From positions 1-64,000 of the forward strand of contig SLSF01000161.1 of assembly GCA_007130605.1 (NCBI GenBank): a stretch of DNA of 64,000 nt, written 5' to 3'. The notes beneath the pieces are model-generated. The model searched no databases. It saw only the letters and a list, made by a program, of their open reading frames with translations, and was not told the origin of the DNA. Origin of the DNA: Gemmatimonadota bacterium (GTDB taxonomy: Bacteria; Gemmatimonadota; Gemmatimonadetes; Longimicrobiales; Gaopeijiaceae). Shown piece by piece: positions 139-14,326 of this stretch (the first letter of the stretch is position 1; the number at the start of each line of letters is the position of its first letter). A program made the translations under genes and the position numbers.

Positions 139-765
139 TCAGACGAAGGGGGCCAGGAGGCGTCGGGTGGCGTCGGCGGGATCGTCGGCGGCCATGATGG
201 CCCCGATGACCGCGCACCCGGCTGCACCGGTGGTGGCGATGGCGCCGGCCCGCTCGGAGGTGATGCCCCCGATGCCCACCACCGGAATGGGGACCGCCTC
301 CACCACCTGCCGGAGCCCCTCGGGGCCGATGGCCTCGCCGGCATCGGCCTTGGTCCCGGTGGGCCAGACCGTCCCGCACCCCAGGTAGTCCGCACCCTCG
401 TCGAGGGCCCGGCGGGCCTCTGCCGGATCGTCGGTGGAGTATCCCACGAGAAAGCCCGGGGGGACGATCCGTCGCGCCGCCGCGACCGGGAGGTCGTCCG
501 GCCCCAGGTGGACCCCGTCGGCCTCGGCGGCCAGTGCCACGTCGAGGCGGTCGTTCACGAAGAAGAGGGCGCCATGTTGGTGACAGAGTCCCCGGAGCCG
601 ACCGGCGGTGGGGAGGAGCTCGGAGGCGCTCGCCTCCTTCTGGCGGAGCTGCACCGCAGGGGCCCCCGCCTTCAGTGCCAGGCGGACCACGCTCTCCACC
701 GACCGAGGCGCTGCCAGCCCCCCGTCGGTGATGACGATGAGGCGGAGCCTGGCCGGGTCGATCAC
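139..765 (-). CDS. thiE: Thiamine-phosphate synthase
   Basis: ThiE joins HMP-pyrophosphate and the thiazole phosphate to give thiamine phosphate in the cytosol. The 208-residue product is a normal-length TIM-barrel. Visible family motifs are AVQLRQKE near the N-terminus, NDRLDVALAAEADGVHLGPDD, GADYLGCGTVWPTGTK (phosphate/pyrophosphate loop) and PVVGIGGI near the C-terminus. A GTG start at 765 is preferred over an in-frame ATG at 801 because it gives a 4-bp GTGA overlap with the mltG stop, so the gene is probably translationally coupled as the last gene of V4R-ruvX-mltG-thiE. No other thiamine gene is in the window. Confidence 0.93.
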   Translation of the reverse strand: MIDPARLRLIVITDGGLAAPRSVESVVRLALKAGAPAVQLRQKEASASELLPTAGRLRGLCHQHGALFFVNDRLDVALAAEADGVHLGPDDLPVAAARRIVPPGFLVGYSTDDPAEARRALDEGADYLGCGTVWPTGTKADAGEAIGPEGLRQVVEAVPIPVVGIGGITSERAGAIATTGAAGCAVIGAIMAADDPADATRRLLAPFV

Positions 766-1760
766 TGGTCCCGTGAGAGGGCGTCGGGGAGTCGGTCCCA
801 CTCCCTGCGCGCCTGGACCCGGGCCCGGTTGTGCTCGTCCAGCGTCCGGGTGAAGATGTGGCTTCCGTCGGGGCGGGCGACGAAGTAGAGGTAGTCCACG
901 TCGGCGGGGAAGAGCGCCGCCTCCACCGCATCCTCTCCGGGGGCCCCGATGGGACCCGGGGGTAGACCGGGCTGGGTGTAGGTGTTGTAGGGGTGGTCGG
1001 CCACCGAGTCGATGTCGGCGTAGAGCAGCCGTGAGCGCCGCTCCCCCAGGGCATACTGGACCGTGGGATCGGCCTGCAGGAGGTACCCGATGCGGAGCCG
1101 GTTGTGGAAGACCGCCGCAATGATGGGCATCTCCTCGGTACGTCGGGCTTCCGCCTGGACGATGGAGGCCAGGGTCATGAGCTCACCTTCGCTCCAGCCC
1201 AGCGCCTCGAGCCGCGCCCTCCGTTCGGGTGTCCAGACACTCCGGTAGCGGTCGATCATGACCCGAACCACCGAATCGAGGGGGGTTCCGGGGGCGAACT
1301 GGTAGGTGTCGGGGAAGAGGTACCCCTCGAGCCCGGGGCCCGGGAGGTCCCATCGCTCCTCGGCCTCGAGGTCCCATCCCTGGAGGGCCGCATGGACCTC
1401 GGCGTCTTCCATCTCGGTGACCTGGGCGAGTCGGACGGCGATCTGCTGCAGCGTCCATCCTTCGGGGATCGTCATGGCCTCGGAGATCATGCGCCCGGCC
1501 ACCATCTGGTCCAGGATCTCGAACCAGCCGGCTTCCGCCGGAATGGCGTACCGACCCGACCGGACCCGCCGGTCGTCACCCCGCACTCGGGCCAGGGCTC
1601 GGAAGAGGATGGGGACGCGGACGAGGTCGTGCTCCACCAGGGAGTCGGTCACATGGTGGAAGCTGGCGCCACGGGGCACGGTGATCTCCACCGTCTCACC
1701 CGAAGGCTCGCCACCGCACGCGACCAGGAGAAGGAGGAAGAGGAGGAGGGCGCGCTTCAT
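762..1760 (-). CDS. mltG: Endolytic murein transglycosylase MltG (YceG family)
   Basis: MltG cleaves nascent glycan strands at the periplasmic face of the inner membrane and is thought to set glycan length. The product has 332 residues. Residues 1-15 form a short hydrophobic leader ending in a lipobox-like LLVAC, so it is probably a lipoprotein; most homologues have an uncleaved membrane anchor instead. Family motifs are LEGYLFPDTY (144-153), LASIVQAEA (197-205, active-site helix), FHNRL (218-222) and LQADPTVQYALG (228-239). The first Glu of the usual IVEKE motif is Gln here while the second is kept; some actinobacterial members look similar. The ATG overlaps the ruvX stop (ATGA) and its own stop overlaps thiE. 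Confidence 0.92.
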   Translation of the reverse strand: MKRALLLFLLLLVACGGEPSGETVEITVPRGASFHHVTDSLVEHDLVRVPILFRALARVRGDDRRVRSGRYAIPAEAGWFEILDQMVAGRMISEAMTIPEGWTLQQIAVRLAQVTEMEDAEVHAALQGWDLEAEERWDLPGPGLEGYLFPDTYQFAPGTPLDSVVRVMIDRYRSVWTPERRARLEALGWSEGELMTLASIVQAEARRTEEMPIIAAVFHNRLRIGYLLQADPTVQYALGERRSRLLYADIDSVADHPYNTYTQPGLPPGPIGAPGEDAVEAALFPADVDYLYFVARPDGSHIFTRTLDEHNRARVQARREWDRLPDALSRDQ

Positions 1761-2188
1761 CCTTCCGACCCCTCCTCCTGGTCGAGCCAGCGCTGGAGGA
1801 TGAGTGCCGCCGCACCCTGGTCGATGCGCGCCTTCTCCTCGCGCTTCCCCCTGGGGAGGCCACTGGAGCGCACCAGCGCCTCGGCCTCAACCGAGGTGAA
1901 GCGCTCGTCCACGTAGTGGATGGGGAGACCGGTCCGTCGCCCCAGGGCATCTCCGGCGCGCCGGACTTCGCGGGTCCAGTCGGACTCGCTCCCGTCGAGT
2001 TCGAGGGGAAGGCCGAGGACGAGGGCCTCCACCTGGTGGGCGTGGACCAGCTCCTCGATGGCCCGGAATGGAGGGCGCTTTCCGCGACGCCGCCGAAGGG
2101 TCGCCACCGGCGAAGCGAGGGTTCCGGTGGGGTCGCTCACGGCAATACCAATCCGTACCTCTCCGAAGTCGATCCCCATGGCCCGCAC
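1757..2188 (-). CDS. ruvX: Putative pre-16S rRNA nuclease / Holliday-junction resolvase-like protein RuvX (YqgF)
   Basis: YqgF/RuvX has an RNase H fold and is linked to 5' maturation of 16S rRNA. The 143-residue product shows the expected blocks: GIDFGEVRIGIAVSD at the N-terminus (first acidic residue), VLGLPLELDGSES, VDERFTSVEAEA, and DQGAAALILQRWL at the C-terminus. The GTG at 2188 (VRAMGIDFG) is chosen because homologues start with a similar MRxLGID and it lies 13 bases after the upstream stop; the ATG at 2179 is the alternative. The ruvX-mltG pairing is common in bacteria. The stop overlaps the mltG ATG. Confidence 0.92.
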   Translation of the reverse strand: MRAMGIDFGEVRIGIAVSDPTGTLASPVATLRRRRGKRPPFRAIEELVHAHQVEALVLGLPLELDGSESDWTREVRRAGDALGRRTGLPIHYVDERFTSVEAEALVRSSGLPRGKREEKARIDQGAAALILQRWLDQEEGSEG

Positions 2189-8002: not shown

Positions 8003-8638
8003 ATGCTCACCAGAACCCCTCTGCGGCTCCTCTCGGCCCCCCTCGTGGGTGGGCTCGTGGTCGCCATGCTCCTCGCCGCCCCCGCTCCGGCGGAAGCCCA
8101 GATGGAGAACGACTTCTTCTCCGGAATGCAGACCGGCTTCGGATATGCCGGGGCCTTCCCCGATCTGCTCTTCGGTGGCGGAGTCTTCCACATTTTCCGC
8201 CCCGGTGGCTTTGGAGCGATGCTCGACTTCAAGATGAATCACGAGACGATGAAGGGGGACCGGGCCTTCACCGATGCCTTCACGGCGCGCGATGTGCCCG
8301 AGGAGCTGGGATTCGATTACGCCCTCACCGCCCGCTTCAACGAGTGGATGATCACCAATGTGGGGATCATGCGTCCCCTGACGGAGGACTTTGCGATCTT
8401 CGCCGGGGTCGCCGTCGCCTACATGGAGCGGATCGACGAGTACCAGATGTTCGGTGACGACGAAGAGGGGGGCGCCGGCGATGTGGTCATGGTGGTGAAC
8501 GAGGAAAATTCCCGCTGGACCAGCGGGTACTTCGGGGGCGCCTTCCTCCGCCTGGGCCAGAATGTGGTGGTTCGCTTCGGTTACGAGGAACGCCCGAGCC
8601 AGGTGGGCATCGGCGCGTACTGGGTGCTCTCCCGGTGA
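8003..8638 (+). CDS. Secreted outer-membrane beta-barrel-like protein of unknown role
   Basis: The 211-residue protein has a signal peptide ending in AEAQ (about residues 1-33), then alternating amphipathic strands rich in Gly and aromatic residues (GFGYAGAFPDLLFGGGVFHIF, YALTARFNEW, FAIFAGVAVAY, SGYFGGAFLRLG) and ends in a strand with a terminal basic residue. This fits a small outer-membrane barrel. The ATG at 8003 opens the signal peptide; upstream in-frame codons are not needed. The stop overlaps the next GTG (GTGA), so it is coupled to the cupin gene, although no functional link is obvious. Confidence 0.65.
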   Translation: MLTRTPLRLLSAPLVGGLVVAMLLAAPAPAEAQMENDFFSGMQTGFGYAGAFPDLLFGGGVFHIFRPGGFGAMLDFKMNHETMKGDRAFTDAFTARDVPEELGFDYALTARFNEWMITNVGIMRPLTEDFAIFAGVAVAYMERIDEYQMFGDDEEGGAGDVVMVVNEENSRWTSGYFGGAFLRLGQNVVVRFGYEERPSQVGIGAYWVLSR

Positions 8639-9087
8639 GTGACGGGGGTCGACTCTCGGTACCGGAGGACCGCCTGGGAGACGGGGGCCGCGAGCCGGTC
8701 CCCTCTCCCGCGCCCGCCCGCAGGGTGGAGAAGCCGTGGGGGTACGAGGTCATCTGGGCCCACACCGACCTCTACGTGGGGAAGTCGATCCATGTGCGGG
8801 CGGGGGAATCCCTCTCCCTCCAGTTCCACGAGGAGAAGGACGAGACCCTCTTCCTCCTCTCGGGACAGCTCCGGATGCGGGTGGGGCGGGGACTCGACGC
8901 CATGGAGGAGGTGGAGCTCCAGGAGGGAGAAGCGCTCCGCATCGAGCCGGGGCTCTACCACTGGATGGAGGCCGAGACCGACGTGGTGGTCCTGGAGGCG
9001 TCGACTCCCGAGCTGGATGATGTGATCCGCGTCCGGGACCGGTACGGGCGTGCTCCCGCTCCCGATGGAGGCGACGACGGCGGATGA
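8635..9087 (+). CDS. Cupin-domain protein, mannose-6-phosphate isomerase type II-like
   Basis: The 150-residue protein carries one cupin core: KPWGYEVIWAHTD, KSIHVRAGESLSLQFHEEKDETLFLLSG (metal-binding His-x5-Glu pattern) and EGEALRIEPGLYHWMEAETD (second His). The KPWG opening is typical of the phosphomannose isomerase/GDP-mannose pyrophosphorylase cupin branch, but no nucleotidyltransferase domain is present, so the substrate is unknown. It starts with a GTG overlapping the upstream stop and its own stop overlaps the ATG of folK-aroB (ATGA), so the three genes are probably one transcript. Confidence 0.78.
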   Translation: MSDGGRLSVPEDRLGDGGREPVPSPAPARRVEKPWGYEVIWAHTDLYVGKSIHVRAGESLSLQFHEEKDETLFLLSGQLRMRVGRGLDAMEEVELQEGEALRIEPGLYHWMEAETDVVVLEASTPELDDVIRVRDRYGRAPAPDGGDDGG

Positions 9088-10724
9088 CCTCCACGCACGG
9101 CGTCGTCCTTGCCGCCGGATCGAATCTGGGAGATCGGAAGGCGGAGCTGGCGGCGGCCATCGACGCCCTCGAGGAATTCGTCGAGATCGAGGCGATCTCC
9201 GAAGTCGTGGAGTCGGCGCCGGAGGGAGGCGCGCCCCAGGGGGACTACCTGAACCTGGTTCTCGCCGGTCGGACGGCCCTCGCCCCGGACGCTCTCCTGG
9301 GGCGAATGCTCGAGATCGAGCGGGCACGGGGACGGGTGCGAGGAGAGGTGCGGGGCGAGTCGCGGACCCTCGACCTGGACCTGATCCTTCATGGTGACCG
9401 GCTCCTGGACCGTCCGGAACTCACCCTGCCGCACCCCCGCTGGGCCACCCGCTCCTTCGTGGCGCGGCCCCTCCTCTCCATCCTCCCGGGGGGAGAGGAT
9501 CCCGCCAGTGGGTCGGCTCTTGCCGACCGGGTTCCGGACGACGTCCTGGCCGATCCCGGGCTTCGATCGAAGGGGTGGATCGACCACCCGGCCAGTGGCA
9601 GTGTCCTCGTTCGCACCGGGAGCGGAGACCGGTATCCGGTCATCGTCCGGCGGGGTGCCCTCGACGACCTCCCCGGGTGGCTCGACCGTCGCCTTCCCGG
9701 GCGGGCGCACCTGGCCCTCATCGCCGACGACCAGGTCTTCGGCCATCACGGAGAGCGGGTGCGGTCACTCCTGGAGCGGGAGGGGCGGGCGGTGTCGGTC
9801 CATCCCTTTCCCCACGGCGAATCCCACAAGAATCGGGAGGAGTGGGCCCGCCTCACCGATGCCCTCCTGGGAGAGGGCGTGGCCCGGGACGGCGCGGTGG
9901 TGGCGCTGGGAGGCGGGGTCACCGGGGACCTCGCCGGCTTCGTGGCGGCCACCTACATGCGTGGGATTCCGGTGGTGCAGATCCCCACCTCGCTGGTGGC
10001 CATGATCGACGCCTCGGTCGGTGGGAAGACCGGGGTGGATGTGCCGGCGGGAAAGAATCTCGCCGGAGCCTTCCACCCTCCGGCCTTCGTTCTTGCCGAT
10101 CCGGATCTCACCGGGACCCTCCCCCGCCGGGAGCGGGCGCAGGGGCTCGTGGAGGCCCTGAAGCATGGGGCGATCCTCGACAGCGCCTACTTCGAGGCCC
10201 TCCTGGCCGATGCCGGGGCGCTCCTCGACGGCGATCCCGGGGCGACCGAGGGTGCGGTTCGACGTTCGGTGGAGATCAAGGCCGGGGTGGTGAGCCGCGA
10301 CGAGCGGGAGGGAGGACTCCGGCAGGTCCTCAACTTCGGCCACACCCTGGGCCACGCCCTGGAGGCGGACTCCCACTACCGGATGCCCCATGGAACCGCG
10401 GTGGCCCGGGGGATGGTGCTGGAGGCGCGGCTGGGCGAGCGCCTGGGGGTCACCGAGGCGGGAAGCGCCCACCGGATCGCCGAAGGGGTTCGAGCCCTCG
10501 AGATCGATCCGGACACCCCTCCCGTCGATGGCGCGACCCTCGAGCGGCTCCTGGGCCTCATGCGTCGCGACAAGAAGGTGCGCGGGGGCGAGATCCGCAC
10601 CGTCCTCCTCTCGGAGGTGGGCCAGGCGAGCCCGGAGGACGGATGGAGCCGGGCGGTCCCCGAGACCACCCTCCGCTCCCTTCTCCAGGAGGAAACGGCG
10701 GCACCAAGGGGTGAGCGGGTTTGA
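9084..10724 (+). CDS. folK-aroB: Fusion of HPPK (FolK) and 3-dehydroquinate synthase (AroB)
   Basis: One 546-residue reading frame holds two enzymes. Residues 5-160 are HPPK, which pyrophosphorylates 6-hydroxymethyl-dihydropterin: LAAGSNLGDR (9-18), RGESRTLDLDLILHGD (90-105, Mg/ATP site) and LTLPHPR. Residues about 172-540 are dehydroquinate synthase, the second step of the shikimate pathway: GGGVTGDLAGF (276-286), VGGKTGVD, KNLAGAFHPP, and the zinc ligands Glu357 (VEALKHG), His420 (NFGHTLGHALE) and His436 (PHGTA), spaced as in known AroB. All catalytic motifs of both halves look intact, and no stop or frameshift separates them. Both pathways feed folate through chorismate and p-aminobenzoate. 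The ATG overlaps the cupin stop. Confidence 0.93.
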   Translation: MTSTHGVVLAAGSNLGDRKAELAAAIDALEEFVEIEAISEVVESAPEGGAPQGDYLNLVLAGRTALAPDALLGRMLEIERARGRVRGEVRGESRTLDLDLILHGDRLLDRPELTLPHPRWATRSFVARPLLSILPGGEDPASGSALADRVPDDVLADPGLRSKGWIDHPASGSVLVRTGSGDRYPVIVRRGALDDLPGWLDRRLPGRAHLALIADDQVFGHHGERVRSLLEREGRAVSVHPFPHGESHKNREEWARLTDALLGEGVARDGAVVALGGGVTGDLAGFVAATYMRGIPVVQIPTSLVAMIDASVGGKTGVDVPAGKNLAGAFHPPAFVLADPDLTGTLPRRERAQGLVEALKHGAILDSAYFEALLADAGALLDGDPGATEGAVRRSVEIKAGVVSRDEREGGLRQVLNFGHTLGHALEADSHYRMPHGTAVARGMVLEARLGERLGVTEAGSAHRIAEGVRALEIDPDTPPVDGATLERLLGLMRRDKKVRGGEIRTVLLSEVGQASPEDGWSRAVPETTLRSLLQEETAAPRGERV

Positions 10725-10749: not shown

Positions 10750-10821
10750 TCCGGCGCTCCTCAACACACCGGCCCGAACACCGCGGTGAGGTCCGTCCAC
10801 CCATCGACCGAGGGAGGTCAC

Positions 10822-12420
10822 ATGGCGCTCATGGAGCGCTCTGCGGGGCTTTCCGTCTCTCAGGTACTGGCGCTTTCCGCCGCCGATTCCCCCCAACGGG
10901 ACTTCCTCGTTGCCGGGGGTGAGGGACACTCGTATACCCGGATCCGCGAGGAGTCCGACGCTCTCGCCGCCTCCCTGGCGAATCTCGGCATCGAGGCGGG
11001 GGACCGGATGGCGATCCTCCTTCCCGGCTGCCAGGAGTTCGTCGTCGCCCTCTTCGCCCTGGCGCGCCTCGGGGTGGTGGCGGTGCCCATCAACCCCAGG
11101 CTCGCCGAGTCCGAGATCCGCTACCTCCTCCGCCACTCCCAGGCGGTGGGCGCCGTCACGGTGGAGCGCTTCCATGGGGTCGACTACCTGGAGGTCTTCG
11201 AGGAGCTCCTTCCCCGCCTCCCCGAACTCCAGTACCTGGTCACCGTGGGTGAGGAGGACCTCTGGTACGACGACCGGATCTTCCAGTTCGAGGACCTGGT
11301 CTCCGCGGGACGGGGGCGGGAGCTTCCCGAGGTGGCCATCGACCCCGGCGAGTCGATCCTGGCCATCCTCTACACCTCGGGTACGACGGGAAAGCCCAAG
11401 GGGGTGGAGCTGACCCACCGGAACCTGATCCACGCCGCCGCGGCCACCGCCGACGGCATCGGACTGGAGCGGACGGACCGGGTCTTCGGGGTCACCGCCC
11501 TCTTCCATGTCTTCGGAATCGGGCCGGGGATCCTGGGGTGCGCCCTCACCGGGAGCACCCTGATCCTCCAGGAGGAGTTCGAGGCCGAGGAGGCCCTCGA
11601 CCTCATCGCGGAGCATCGGGCCACGGTGCACTACGGCGTGCCCACCGTCTTTGCCGAGGAGCTACGGGTGCAGCGGCGTGCGCCCCGGGACCTCTCTTCC
11701 CTTCGGGTCGGGCTGGTAGCCGGTGCTCCCATGCCGGAGGAGCTGGCCCGCGAGGTGGTGGAGACCCTCTGTCCCGAACTCCTGGTGGCGTACTCCCTCA
11801 CCGAGACCGCCTCGGTCCTGGCCCTGACCCGGGCCGGCGATCCCAGGGAGAAGCGCCGACTCACCGCCGGTCGGCCGGTTCGGGGGATGGAGGCGCGGGT
11901 GCTGGAGTCCGATGGGACCGTCCTCCCGGTGGAGAGCCTGGGAGAGATCGCCGCCCGGGGGCCCCAGGTGATGAAGGGTTACTACCGGCAGCCGGGCGAG
12001 ACGGCCCGGGCCTTCGACGCCGATGGCTTTTTCCGCACGGGTGACCTGGGGATCGTCGACGAGGAGGGATTCGTCCATTTGGTGGGACGCCGCAAAGAGG
12101 TTATCATTCGAGGCGGTTACAATGTCTATCCCAGAGAAGTGGAAGATCGCATCCATGCCCACCCGGCGGTTCGTGAGGCTGCGGTGGTCGGGGTGAAGGA
12201 CGCCGTTCTGGGCGAGGCCATCTGTGCTGCAGTGATCCCCGTCGAGGGGGCCATCGTGACGGATTCCGAGATTCGGGACTGGTGTGGAGAAATCCTCGCC
12301 GAGTACAAGGTCCCGGATCGGGTCCATTTCATGGAGGCCTTCCCCATGACCGGGACAGGAAAAATTCGAAGGGTCGAACTGGTCCGGCTGTTGGAGTCGG
12401 AAGACACGACCCGGGAGTGA
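10822..12420 (+). CDS. Class I acyl-CoA synthetase (long-chain fatty acid--CoA ligase family)
   Basis: The 532-residue enzyme activates a carboxylic acid through an acyl-adenylate and loads it on CoA. It shows the P-loop [18 protein letters not shown] (about 190-207), YSLTETASV, FFRTGDLG, the hinge GRRKEVIIRGGYNVYPREVE and the C-terminal catalytic lysine in MTGTGKIRR. No signal peptide is present, so it acts in the cytosol or at the membrane. The ATG at 10822 has GGGAGG about six bases upstream; the open frame extends into folK-aroB but without family similarity. Chain length specificity cannot be predicted. The position next to etfBA further downstream would fit fatty-acid use, which is inference. 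Confidence 0.88.
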   Translation: MALMERSAGLSVSQVLALSAADSPQRDFLVAGGEGHSYTRIREESDALAASLANLGIEAGDRMAILLPGCQEFVVALFALARLGVVAVPINPRLAESEIRYLLRHSQAVGAVTVERFHGVDYLEVFEELLPRLPELQYLVTVGEEDLWYDDRIFQFEDLVSAGRGRELPEVAIDPGESILAILYTSGTTGKPKGVELTHRNLIHAAAATADGIGLERTDRVFGVTALFHVFGIGPGILGCALTGSTLILQEEFEAEEALDLIAEHRATVHYGVPTVFAEELRVQRRAPRDLSSLRVGLVAGAPMPEELAREVVETLCPELLVAYSLTETASVLALTRAGDPREKRRLTAGRPVRGMEARVLESDGTVLPVESLGEIAARGPQVMKGYYRQPGETARAFDADGFFRTGDLGIVDEEGFVHLVGRRKEVIIRGGYNVYPREVEDRIHAHPAVREAAVVGVKDAVLGEAICAAVIPVEGAIVTDSEIRDWCGEILAEYKVPDRVHFMEAFPMTGTGKIRRVELVRLLESEDTTRE

Positions 12421-12553: not shown

Positions 12554-14326
12554 ATGAATATCCCGTACATCCGTGCGCCCCACAGTGAGGGCGCGCCCAA
12601 CGCTTCCGTTCAGTCGGCAGCGCCCAACGCCGCACTCCTCATCGACTTCGACAATGTCACCATGGGGATGCGCAGCGACCTCTCGAAGGAACTCAAGAAC
12701 CTCCTCCAGTCCGACATCATCAAGGGGAAGGTCACCGTACAGCGGGCATACGCCGATTGGCGCCGCTACCCCCAGTACATCGTTCCGCTCTCCGAGGCCT
12801 CCATCGACCTGATCTTCGCGCCGGCCTACGGCTCGTCGAAGAAGAACGCCACCGATATCCGGATGGCCATCGATGGGATGGAGCTCGTCTTCATCCGGCC
12901 CGAGATCGGGACCTACATCCTCCTCACCGGGGACTCCGACTTCTCCTCTCTCGTGCTCAAGTTGAAGGAGTACGGCAAGTACGTCATCGGCGTCGGGATC
13001 CAGGAGTCGTCGTCGGACATCCTCGTCCAGAACTGCGACGAGTACTACTCCTACACCTCCCTCACCGGGCTCCGGAAGTCGGGGTCGGGGGGAGACCGCA
13101 CCGGGCTCGACCCCTGGGTCCTGGCCGAGAAGGCGGTGGAGCAGATGAAGCGCCGGAAGGACGTCATGCGCTCCGACCGGCTCAAGCAGGTCATGCTCGA
13201 GCTCGACTCCTCCTTCGACGAGAAGAGCCTCGGCTTCAGCAAGTTCTCCCGCTTCCTCACCGAGGCGGCCCAGAAGGGCGTGCTGAAGCTCAAGAAGATG
13301 GAGAACGGCCAGTACGAGATCGCCACGCCCTCCGGCTCTTCCTCGCGGGCAGGGAGCCCGGAGCGGGAAGCGCCGAGCCGGTCCCGGAGTCGGGAGAGCC
13401 GGTCCCCGAGGAGCGACTCCAGGAGGAGCGATTCCCGGCGCTCGGAGCGGCCCTCCCGCGACGACACGCCCGCCCCGAGCACCTCCGCCGATCCCGCCGA
13501 CCTCAAGGATGGCTACGAACTCCTGGTCGAGGCCATCGGCGACCTCCTGGCGGACCACGATGGCGATGCGGTGCGCGACTCCGATGTGAAGCGCCGGATG
13601 CTCGCGCTCCGGGAGTCCTGGGATGAGGCCGAGCTCGGCTTCCCCAAGTTCTCGCGCTTCCTGCAGCAGGCCCATGACCAGGAGATCATCGACCTGAGAA
13701 AGGGGCCCAACGGGAATTACGAGGTGGCCCTCGGGGCCAAGTCCCCCGGGTCGGCTCCCGAAGAGGTCTCGAAGAAGGGGGACGCTCCGGCGGCGCGCCC
13801 GGCCACCCGGACCCCGGAACCGTCGACGCCTCCCCGCGAGGAGAAGAGCGCTCCCCGGCTCCGGCCCCGCACCTCGGTGCGTCGGCGCGGTGATTCGGAC
13901 GAGCCGCCGCCCCTCTTCGAGGGTCAGGCCGTGGGGGGATCGACCCGCTCCGCTCCCACGAAGCAGGCTCCCTCGACTCCGGCCCCCACTCCCTCCGGCG
14001 ACGACGGGGCCCTCGACCTGGCCGACCTGGGACTTCCCACCGACCGGGACAGCGCCATCAAGTACCTGGCGAATTCGTACAAGGGTGTCGGCAAGAAGAC
14101 CGCCGAGACCCTGGTGGACGAACTGGGGGACGACCTCTTTCCCACCCTGCATTCCGACCCGGACCGGGTTCGGAAGATTCTCCCCCCCTCGCGGGCCGAC
14201 AAGGTCCTGGAACAGTGGGAGGCGGACCATGAGCGCCGGCAGGAGTCCGGGGGCGATGGACGCGCCTCGAAGGGCGGCGGTCGGCGGCGCGGTGGACGCC
14301 GGACCCGCTCCCGCTCCTCGCGCTGA
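12554..14326 (+). CDS. NYN (LabA/DUF88, PIN-like) nuclease-fold protein with two OST-HTH/LOTUS domains and a C-terminal HhH
   Basis: The 590-residue protein is a predicted RNA-binding or RNA-processing factor. Residues about 25-175 are a NYN domain with the acidic residues of the family: LIDFDN (30-34), TDIRMAIDGMEL and LTGDSDF. Two LOTUS-type winged helices follow (about 185-257 and 315-393), each with the pattern LGFSKFSRFL / LGFPKFSRFL and a final NGxYEV strand. They are separated by a Ser-Arg-rich linker (about 260-305). A helix-hairpin-helix region (GVGKKTAETLVDELGDD, about 510-530) and a Gly/Arg/Ser-rich basic tail complete it. AGGA precedes the ATG. The arrangement recalls eukaryotic MARF1-like proteins; the substrate is unknown. 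Confidence 0.85.
   Translation: MNIPYIRAPHSEGAPNASVQSAAPNAALLIDFDNVTMGMRSDLSKELKNLLQSDIIKGKVTVQRAYADWRRYPQYIVPLSEASIDLIFAPAYGSSKKNATDIRMAIDGMELVFIRPEIGTYILLTGDSDFSSLVLKLKEYGKYVIGVGIQESSSDILVQNCDEYYSYTSLTGLRKSGSGGDRTGLDPWVLAEKAVEQMKRRKDVMRSDRLKQVMLELDSSFDEKSLGFSKFSRFLTEAAQKGVLKLKKMENGQYEIATPSGSSSRAGSPEREAPSRSRSRESRSPRSDSRRSDSRRSERPSRDDTPAPSTSADPADLKDGYELLVEAIGDLLADHDGDAVRDSDVKRRMLALRESWDEAELGFPKFSRFLQQAHDQEIIDLRKGPNGNYEVALGAKSPGSAPEEVSKKGDAPAARPATRTPEPSTPPREEKSAPRLRPRTSVRRRGDSDEPPPLFEGQAVGGSTRSAPTKQAPSTPAPTPSGDDGALDLADLGLPTDRDSAIKYLANSYKGVGKKTAETLVDELGDDLFPTLHSDPDRVRKILPPSRADKVLEQWEADHERRQESGGDGRASKGGGRRRGGRRTRSRSSR

Follow-up and report, generated by a model that had tools for sequence, protein, structure and literature searches.

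The question raised by this locus is whether one reading frame that joins a folate enzyme, HPPK (FolK), to a shikimate-pathway enzyme, dehydroquinate (DHQ) synthase (AroB), is a real gene, how it could have arisen, and what the joining would do for the cell. The frame lies on the forward strand of the window, that is, the whole stretch of 64,000 nucleotides analyzed here, at positions 9084..10724, and runs from ATG to TGA as a single open frame of 546 codons plus stop without any internal stop codon. We found that it encodes a complete FolK and a complete AroB in one chain. The HPPK domain takes residues 1-165 (9084..9578, +) and is complete to its C-terminal strand, with PF01288 and TIGR01498 above cut-off; a short linker follows at residues 166-170 (9579..9593, +), and the DHQ synthase domain occupies residues 171-546 (9594..10721, +), recognized by PF01761, PF24621 and TIGR01357 above cut-off and by Foldseek. 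The Pfam matches cover residues 8-135 for HPPK (E 3.9e-30), 242-351 for DHQ_synthase (E 6.1e-41) and 354-499 for DHQS_C (E 3.9e-38), while the NCBIfam equivalogs score 116.9 bits against a cut-off of 54.1 for folK (TIGR01498, model positions 1-128 of 128 covered) and 338.1 bits against a cut-off of 305 for aroB (TIGR01357).

The motifs of both enzymes are also in place, so that the continuous 546-codon frame with intact HPPK and DHQ synthase motifs described in the earlier note was located exactly as stated there. The FolK half carries LAAGSNLGDR and, at residues 94-99, RTLDLD; the AroB half carries GGGVTGD at 276-282, the zinc ligands E357, H420 and H436, and also the NFGHTxGH, DxSVGGK and DKK motifs. 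When the protein is aligned with the E. coli enzyme, the positions of its active-site residues Y53, N55, R82, R92, D95, D97, H115 and R121 are all conserved, and the W89 position differs both in the fusion and across its genus. The AlphaFold2 model of the fused protein, built from an alignment with proteins of related loci in which three rows were translated across natural stops purely to keep both domains in register, has a mean pLDDT of 92.6 and a pTM of 0.82. In this model, the HPPK domain is complete, with C-terminal helices at 146-155 and its last strand at 161-164, and the first AroB strand begins at 173, thus leaving a linker of about six residues, where the confidence is lowest (block pLDDT 73). 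By Foldseek, the AroB part matches solved DHQ synthases with a TM score of about 0.9 by target length.

Whether this join is genuine has to be weighed against the alternative that two overlapping genes exist in reality and were turned into one frame by a wrong base or by the loss of a segment from the assembly. The source is, after all, the draft genome of an uncultured bacterium, 3.0 Mb in 342 contigs with 93% completeness, one indel in the gene overlap of most relatives would be enough to yield a fused frame, and both sister species have about 104 nt more between the two domains. Against it, a one-base error in an overlapping pair would have left the folK stop codon in a shifted frame, and all frames between 9395 and 9950 are free of stop codons, so that the one-base frameshift artefact was rejected. 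The linker also looks coding and models confidently, G+C content by codon position follows a similar pattern over HPPK, linker and AroB, equally short spacing occurs in other relatives (72 nt in L147), and the gene order is conserved on both flanks, with the fused gene lying inside a contig that is at least 64 kb long. A larger assembly deletion, or a population variant, may still be present at the junction; taken as a whole, an artefact is unlikely, and the fusion is genuine with high probability.

The genome content agrees with a single joined gene. It contains a single HPPK and a single AroB, which lie together inside the fused ORF, and no second copy of either was found elsewhere in the 93%-complete genome; thus, the separate full-length folK and aroB genes that the earlier note had asked about do not appear in it. 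Free AroB is not expected from the fused gene either, since no in-frame ATG, GTG or TTG is present in the fused ORF sequence between 9459 and 9759, leaving AroB without a normal start of its own; neither is there a Shine-Dalgarno-like sequence upstream of 9459, and an internal restart yielding free AroB was rejected on both grounds.

The fused gene stands in a conserved order of genes that is shared with its relatives. Upstream lies a cupin gene of the mannose-6-phosphate isomerase C-terminal type (8635..9087, +, by Pfam), whose stop codon overlaps the start of the fusion in an ATGA at 9084..9087 (+), and downstream lie an acyl-CoA ligase (AMP-binding) gene (10819..12420, +, by Pfam) and a gene for an NYN nuclease-like protein with an OST-HTH/LOTUS domain (12554-14326, +, by Pfam), the latter kept downstream of the operon in relatives. 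The cupin gene holds the same place in the two other species of the genus compared (L034 in genome G080 and L035 in G079), and the acyl-CoA ligase gene does so in these and in other relatives. The order common to the fusion and both sister loci is a penicillin-binding protein (-), a receptor-like protein (-), a membrane-type protein (+), cupin, folK, aroB, acyl-CoA ligase and NYN/LOTUS. More generally, the separate folK and aroB of the same family (L034, L035, L036, L037, L118 and others) are the same genes in the same order and with the same operon neighbors as in the fusion but, unlike in the fusion, stop and start codons part the two proteins; in both sister species, folK ends with TGA and aroB starts in another frame.

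How near such pairs stand to a fusion can be seen from 18 other pairs in which folK and aroB are adjacent, some of these being closely related to each other. Relative to folK, aroB reads in phase 2 in 14 of the 18, 12 having an ATGA or GTGA overlap and 2 a 7-nt overlap. In 15 of the 18, the open aroB frame reaches back past the folK stop by 16-391 nt, so that a single indel with the right phase would be enough to fuse the two genes. The gap from HPPK to AroB is 70 nt in the fusion versus 173-174 nt in both sister species, and in most of the remaining pairs it ranges over 72-234 nt. With this shorter gap and no stop codon left, an indel that removed the folK stop together with the aroB start is indicated. 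Two other arrangements were observed among the relatives. At L033 6004-7656 (G049), folK and aroB share the same frame, parted by a single TAG and then 6 nt up to the aroB ATG, so that changing this one stop codon would fuse them; it was rejected as a second fusion because that stop codon separates the genes. At L038 4520-5968, an extra gene for an apparently secreted protein lies between folK and aroB, and several relatives show this arrangement with a gap of about 1.4 kb.

We propose that the ancestral state would have been folK and aroB as operon neighbors, usually with a 4-nt overlap as in the family, and that an indel at the junction, of an extent that cannot be reconstructed, would have cost the folK stop and the aroB start and placed both genes in one phase. 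The product would then be a single polypeptide in which HPPK and DHQ synthase are connected by about six residues, both domains presumably being active, with AroB dimerizing as usual and carrying one HPPK at each N-terminus. Translational coupling is known for overlapping gene pairs (PMC10666635), and the sole effect of the fusion would be a strict 1:1 production in place of that coupling, with neither channelling nor cross-regulation predicted. We therefore regard it as likely that these are merged overlapping operon neighbors giving a predicted bifunctional but uncoupled enzyme, and the fusion is probably nearly neutral.

The distribution of the fusion is very narrow. A search for the same architecture in 395 Gemmatimonadota genomes, as proposed in the earlier note, was evaluated on its best ~160 matches, among which weak cases may be hidden, and no genome other than that of the window gave a match spanning both domains among the matches listed; the idea of a fusion common in the lineage was rejected on this result. 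In the Longimicrobiales genomes searched, HPPK and AroB are otherwise separate within the order. HPPK frame lengths were checked separately in two further families, and the long HPPK frames examined in other families were rejected as FolK-AroB, being fusions of another kind or frames that by chance stay open upstream. No plasmid record matched both domains, and within L066-L112 the AroB loci from outside the Gemmatimonadota showed no HPPK next to aroB. To the extent visible here, the fusion is confined to one species. The suggestion that it might be a lineage marker thus shrinks to a mark of at most one species, given that both sister species have separate genes and that the fusion is absent in the other Gemmatimonadota examined.

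FolK has been joined to other proteins as well in this phylum. It is continuous with DHPS in G116, G117, G185, G189 and G246. One frame at L175 (G314), 651-1931 (-), holds FolK and PanB (ketopantoate hydroxymethyltransferase), with both Pfam domains above cut-off; in G272 (L174), FolK is continuous with a DUF2520 protein; and in G215, G313, G345, G434 and G450 (loci L172, L180, L181, L183 and L185), FolK is followed in one frame by an HD-phosphohydrolase-like protein, a partner that was assigned by eye and that for G215 has no Pfam match. These candidate FolK-PanB, FolK-DUF2520 and FolK-HD-like frames resemble the present one in having an N-terminal FolK and another protein in one frame, and differ from it in the partner. 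Partners as diverse as DHPS, HD-like, PanB and DUF2520 proteins are what would be expected if FolK merges with whatever follows it.

Among known multifunctional enzymes, HPPK-DHPS (FolK-FolP) and FolB-FolK-FolP (PDB 2bmb, 3mcm, 4pzv, 7mpy; PMC4224340) also carry HPPK, at the N-terminus or internally, in one chain with another enzyme. The partners there catalyze consecutive folate steps, whereas the partner in FolK-AroB is a shikimate-pathway enzyme that has no metabolite in common with FolK; the fused protein gives no Pfam match to the DHPS domain PF00809, and folP is found elsewhere in the genome. In parallel, DHQ synthase is part of a multifunctional chain in AroK-AroB (NCBIfam NF010627, NF010556) and in fungal AROM (PDB 6hqv, 7u5s), just as in FolK-AroB, with the difference that its partners in those chains are other shikimate-pathway enzymes and here the partner is HPPK. 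Both AroK-AroB models score far under cut-off on the fused ORF, which reaches 228 bits against 565 for NF010627 and has no shikimate kinase match. No report of a FolK-AroB pairing was found in the open-access literature, in line with the earlier note, which knew of none, and the pairing may already be listed in subscription journals or domain-architecture databases. Neither AroB nor dehydroquinate synthase is mentioned in the searched text of a survey on folate genes in bacteria (PMC1971073) or of an article on folB-folK-folP fusions (PMC4224340), and a census of archaeal fusions lists other shikimate-pathway fusions, HPPK being absent from it (PMC11237513).

The folate context of the organism bears on whether the HPPK half still matters. 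The genome with the fusion has folP, and FolB (dihydroneopterin aldolase) was found neither in it nor in 10 of the 11 relatives with HPPK that were tested, for which reason the absence of FolB is not linked to the fusion; a non-homologous aldolase may stand in its place. HPPK-bearing genomes in which no FolB was found include G000 (the window genome), G079, G080, G073, G081, G086, G065, G082, G149, G138 and G155. About half of the genomes in this order and in family f5 lack an HPPK match (G033, G034, G038, G042, G170, G187, G211, G247 and others). In 12 HPPK-lacking relatives, several of them single-contig, the pterin-binding domain occurs only inside a frame of ~1235-1457 codons, as expected of MetH, with no separate folP. 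Such relatives appear to have lost de novo folate synthesis repeatedly, or may have replacements for the missing enzymes, and, since they lack folP, HPPK seems to be retained in genomes that still build folate de novo.

This apparent loss in many relatives, together with a faster evolution of HPPK (61-63% identity to the sister species versus 68% for AroB), could suggest that the HPPK half is carried along as a passenger in decay, with AroB alone still working. We hold this to be very unlikely, given that the positions corresponding to the E. coli active site are conserved, that this is the sole HPPK in a genome retaining folP, and that pairwise dN/dS versus the sisters is well below 1 (~0.35 for HPPK and ~0.25 for AroB), although this average includes time before the fusion and is no proof that both halves are still maintained.

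The other reading that gives the fusion more meaning than merged neighbors is that of a selected functional coupling, proposed in the earlier note as a coordination of the two supply branches of folate, pterin on one side and chorismate/p-aminobenzoate on the other. Both pathways do feed folate, and folK and aroB are neighbors across the family. AroB and FolK share no metabolite, however, so that channelling is not expected, and AroB acts many steps before p-aminobenzoate and mainly serves the aromatic amino acids, far from the folate branch point. Besides, the partner was already next in the operon of the relatives, folK and aroB can be parted by a gene that has no role in folate (L038), FolK fuses to unrelated neighbors in the same phylum, and the fusion is private to one species among the matches listed from the 395 Gemmatimonadota genomes. 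This coordination is not supported, and we judge it highly improbable. Its strongest form, in which the HPPK and DHQ synthase sites would act on each other under selection and link pterin to chorismate supply in an organism that, unlike many relatives, still makes folate, is likewise highly improbable.

In summary, FolK-AroB is a domain pairing not found in the open-access literature searched, and most likely a clear case of how, at high G+C, operon neighbors with a 4-nt overlap come to encode one protein: the frame of the second gene already extends into the first, so that one indel is enough if its phase is right. It is also a warning for this phylum, where FolK joins several unrelated partners, that such a fusion may reflect only the order of the genes and not a link between their pathways.
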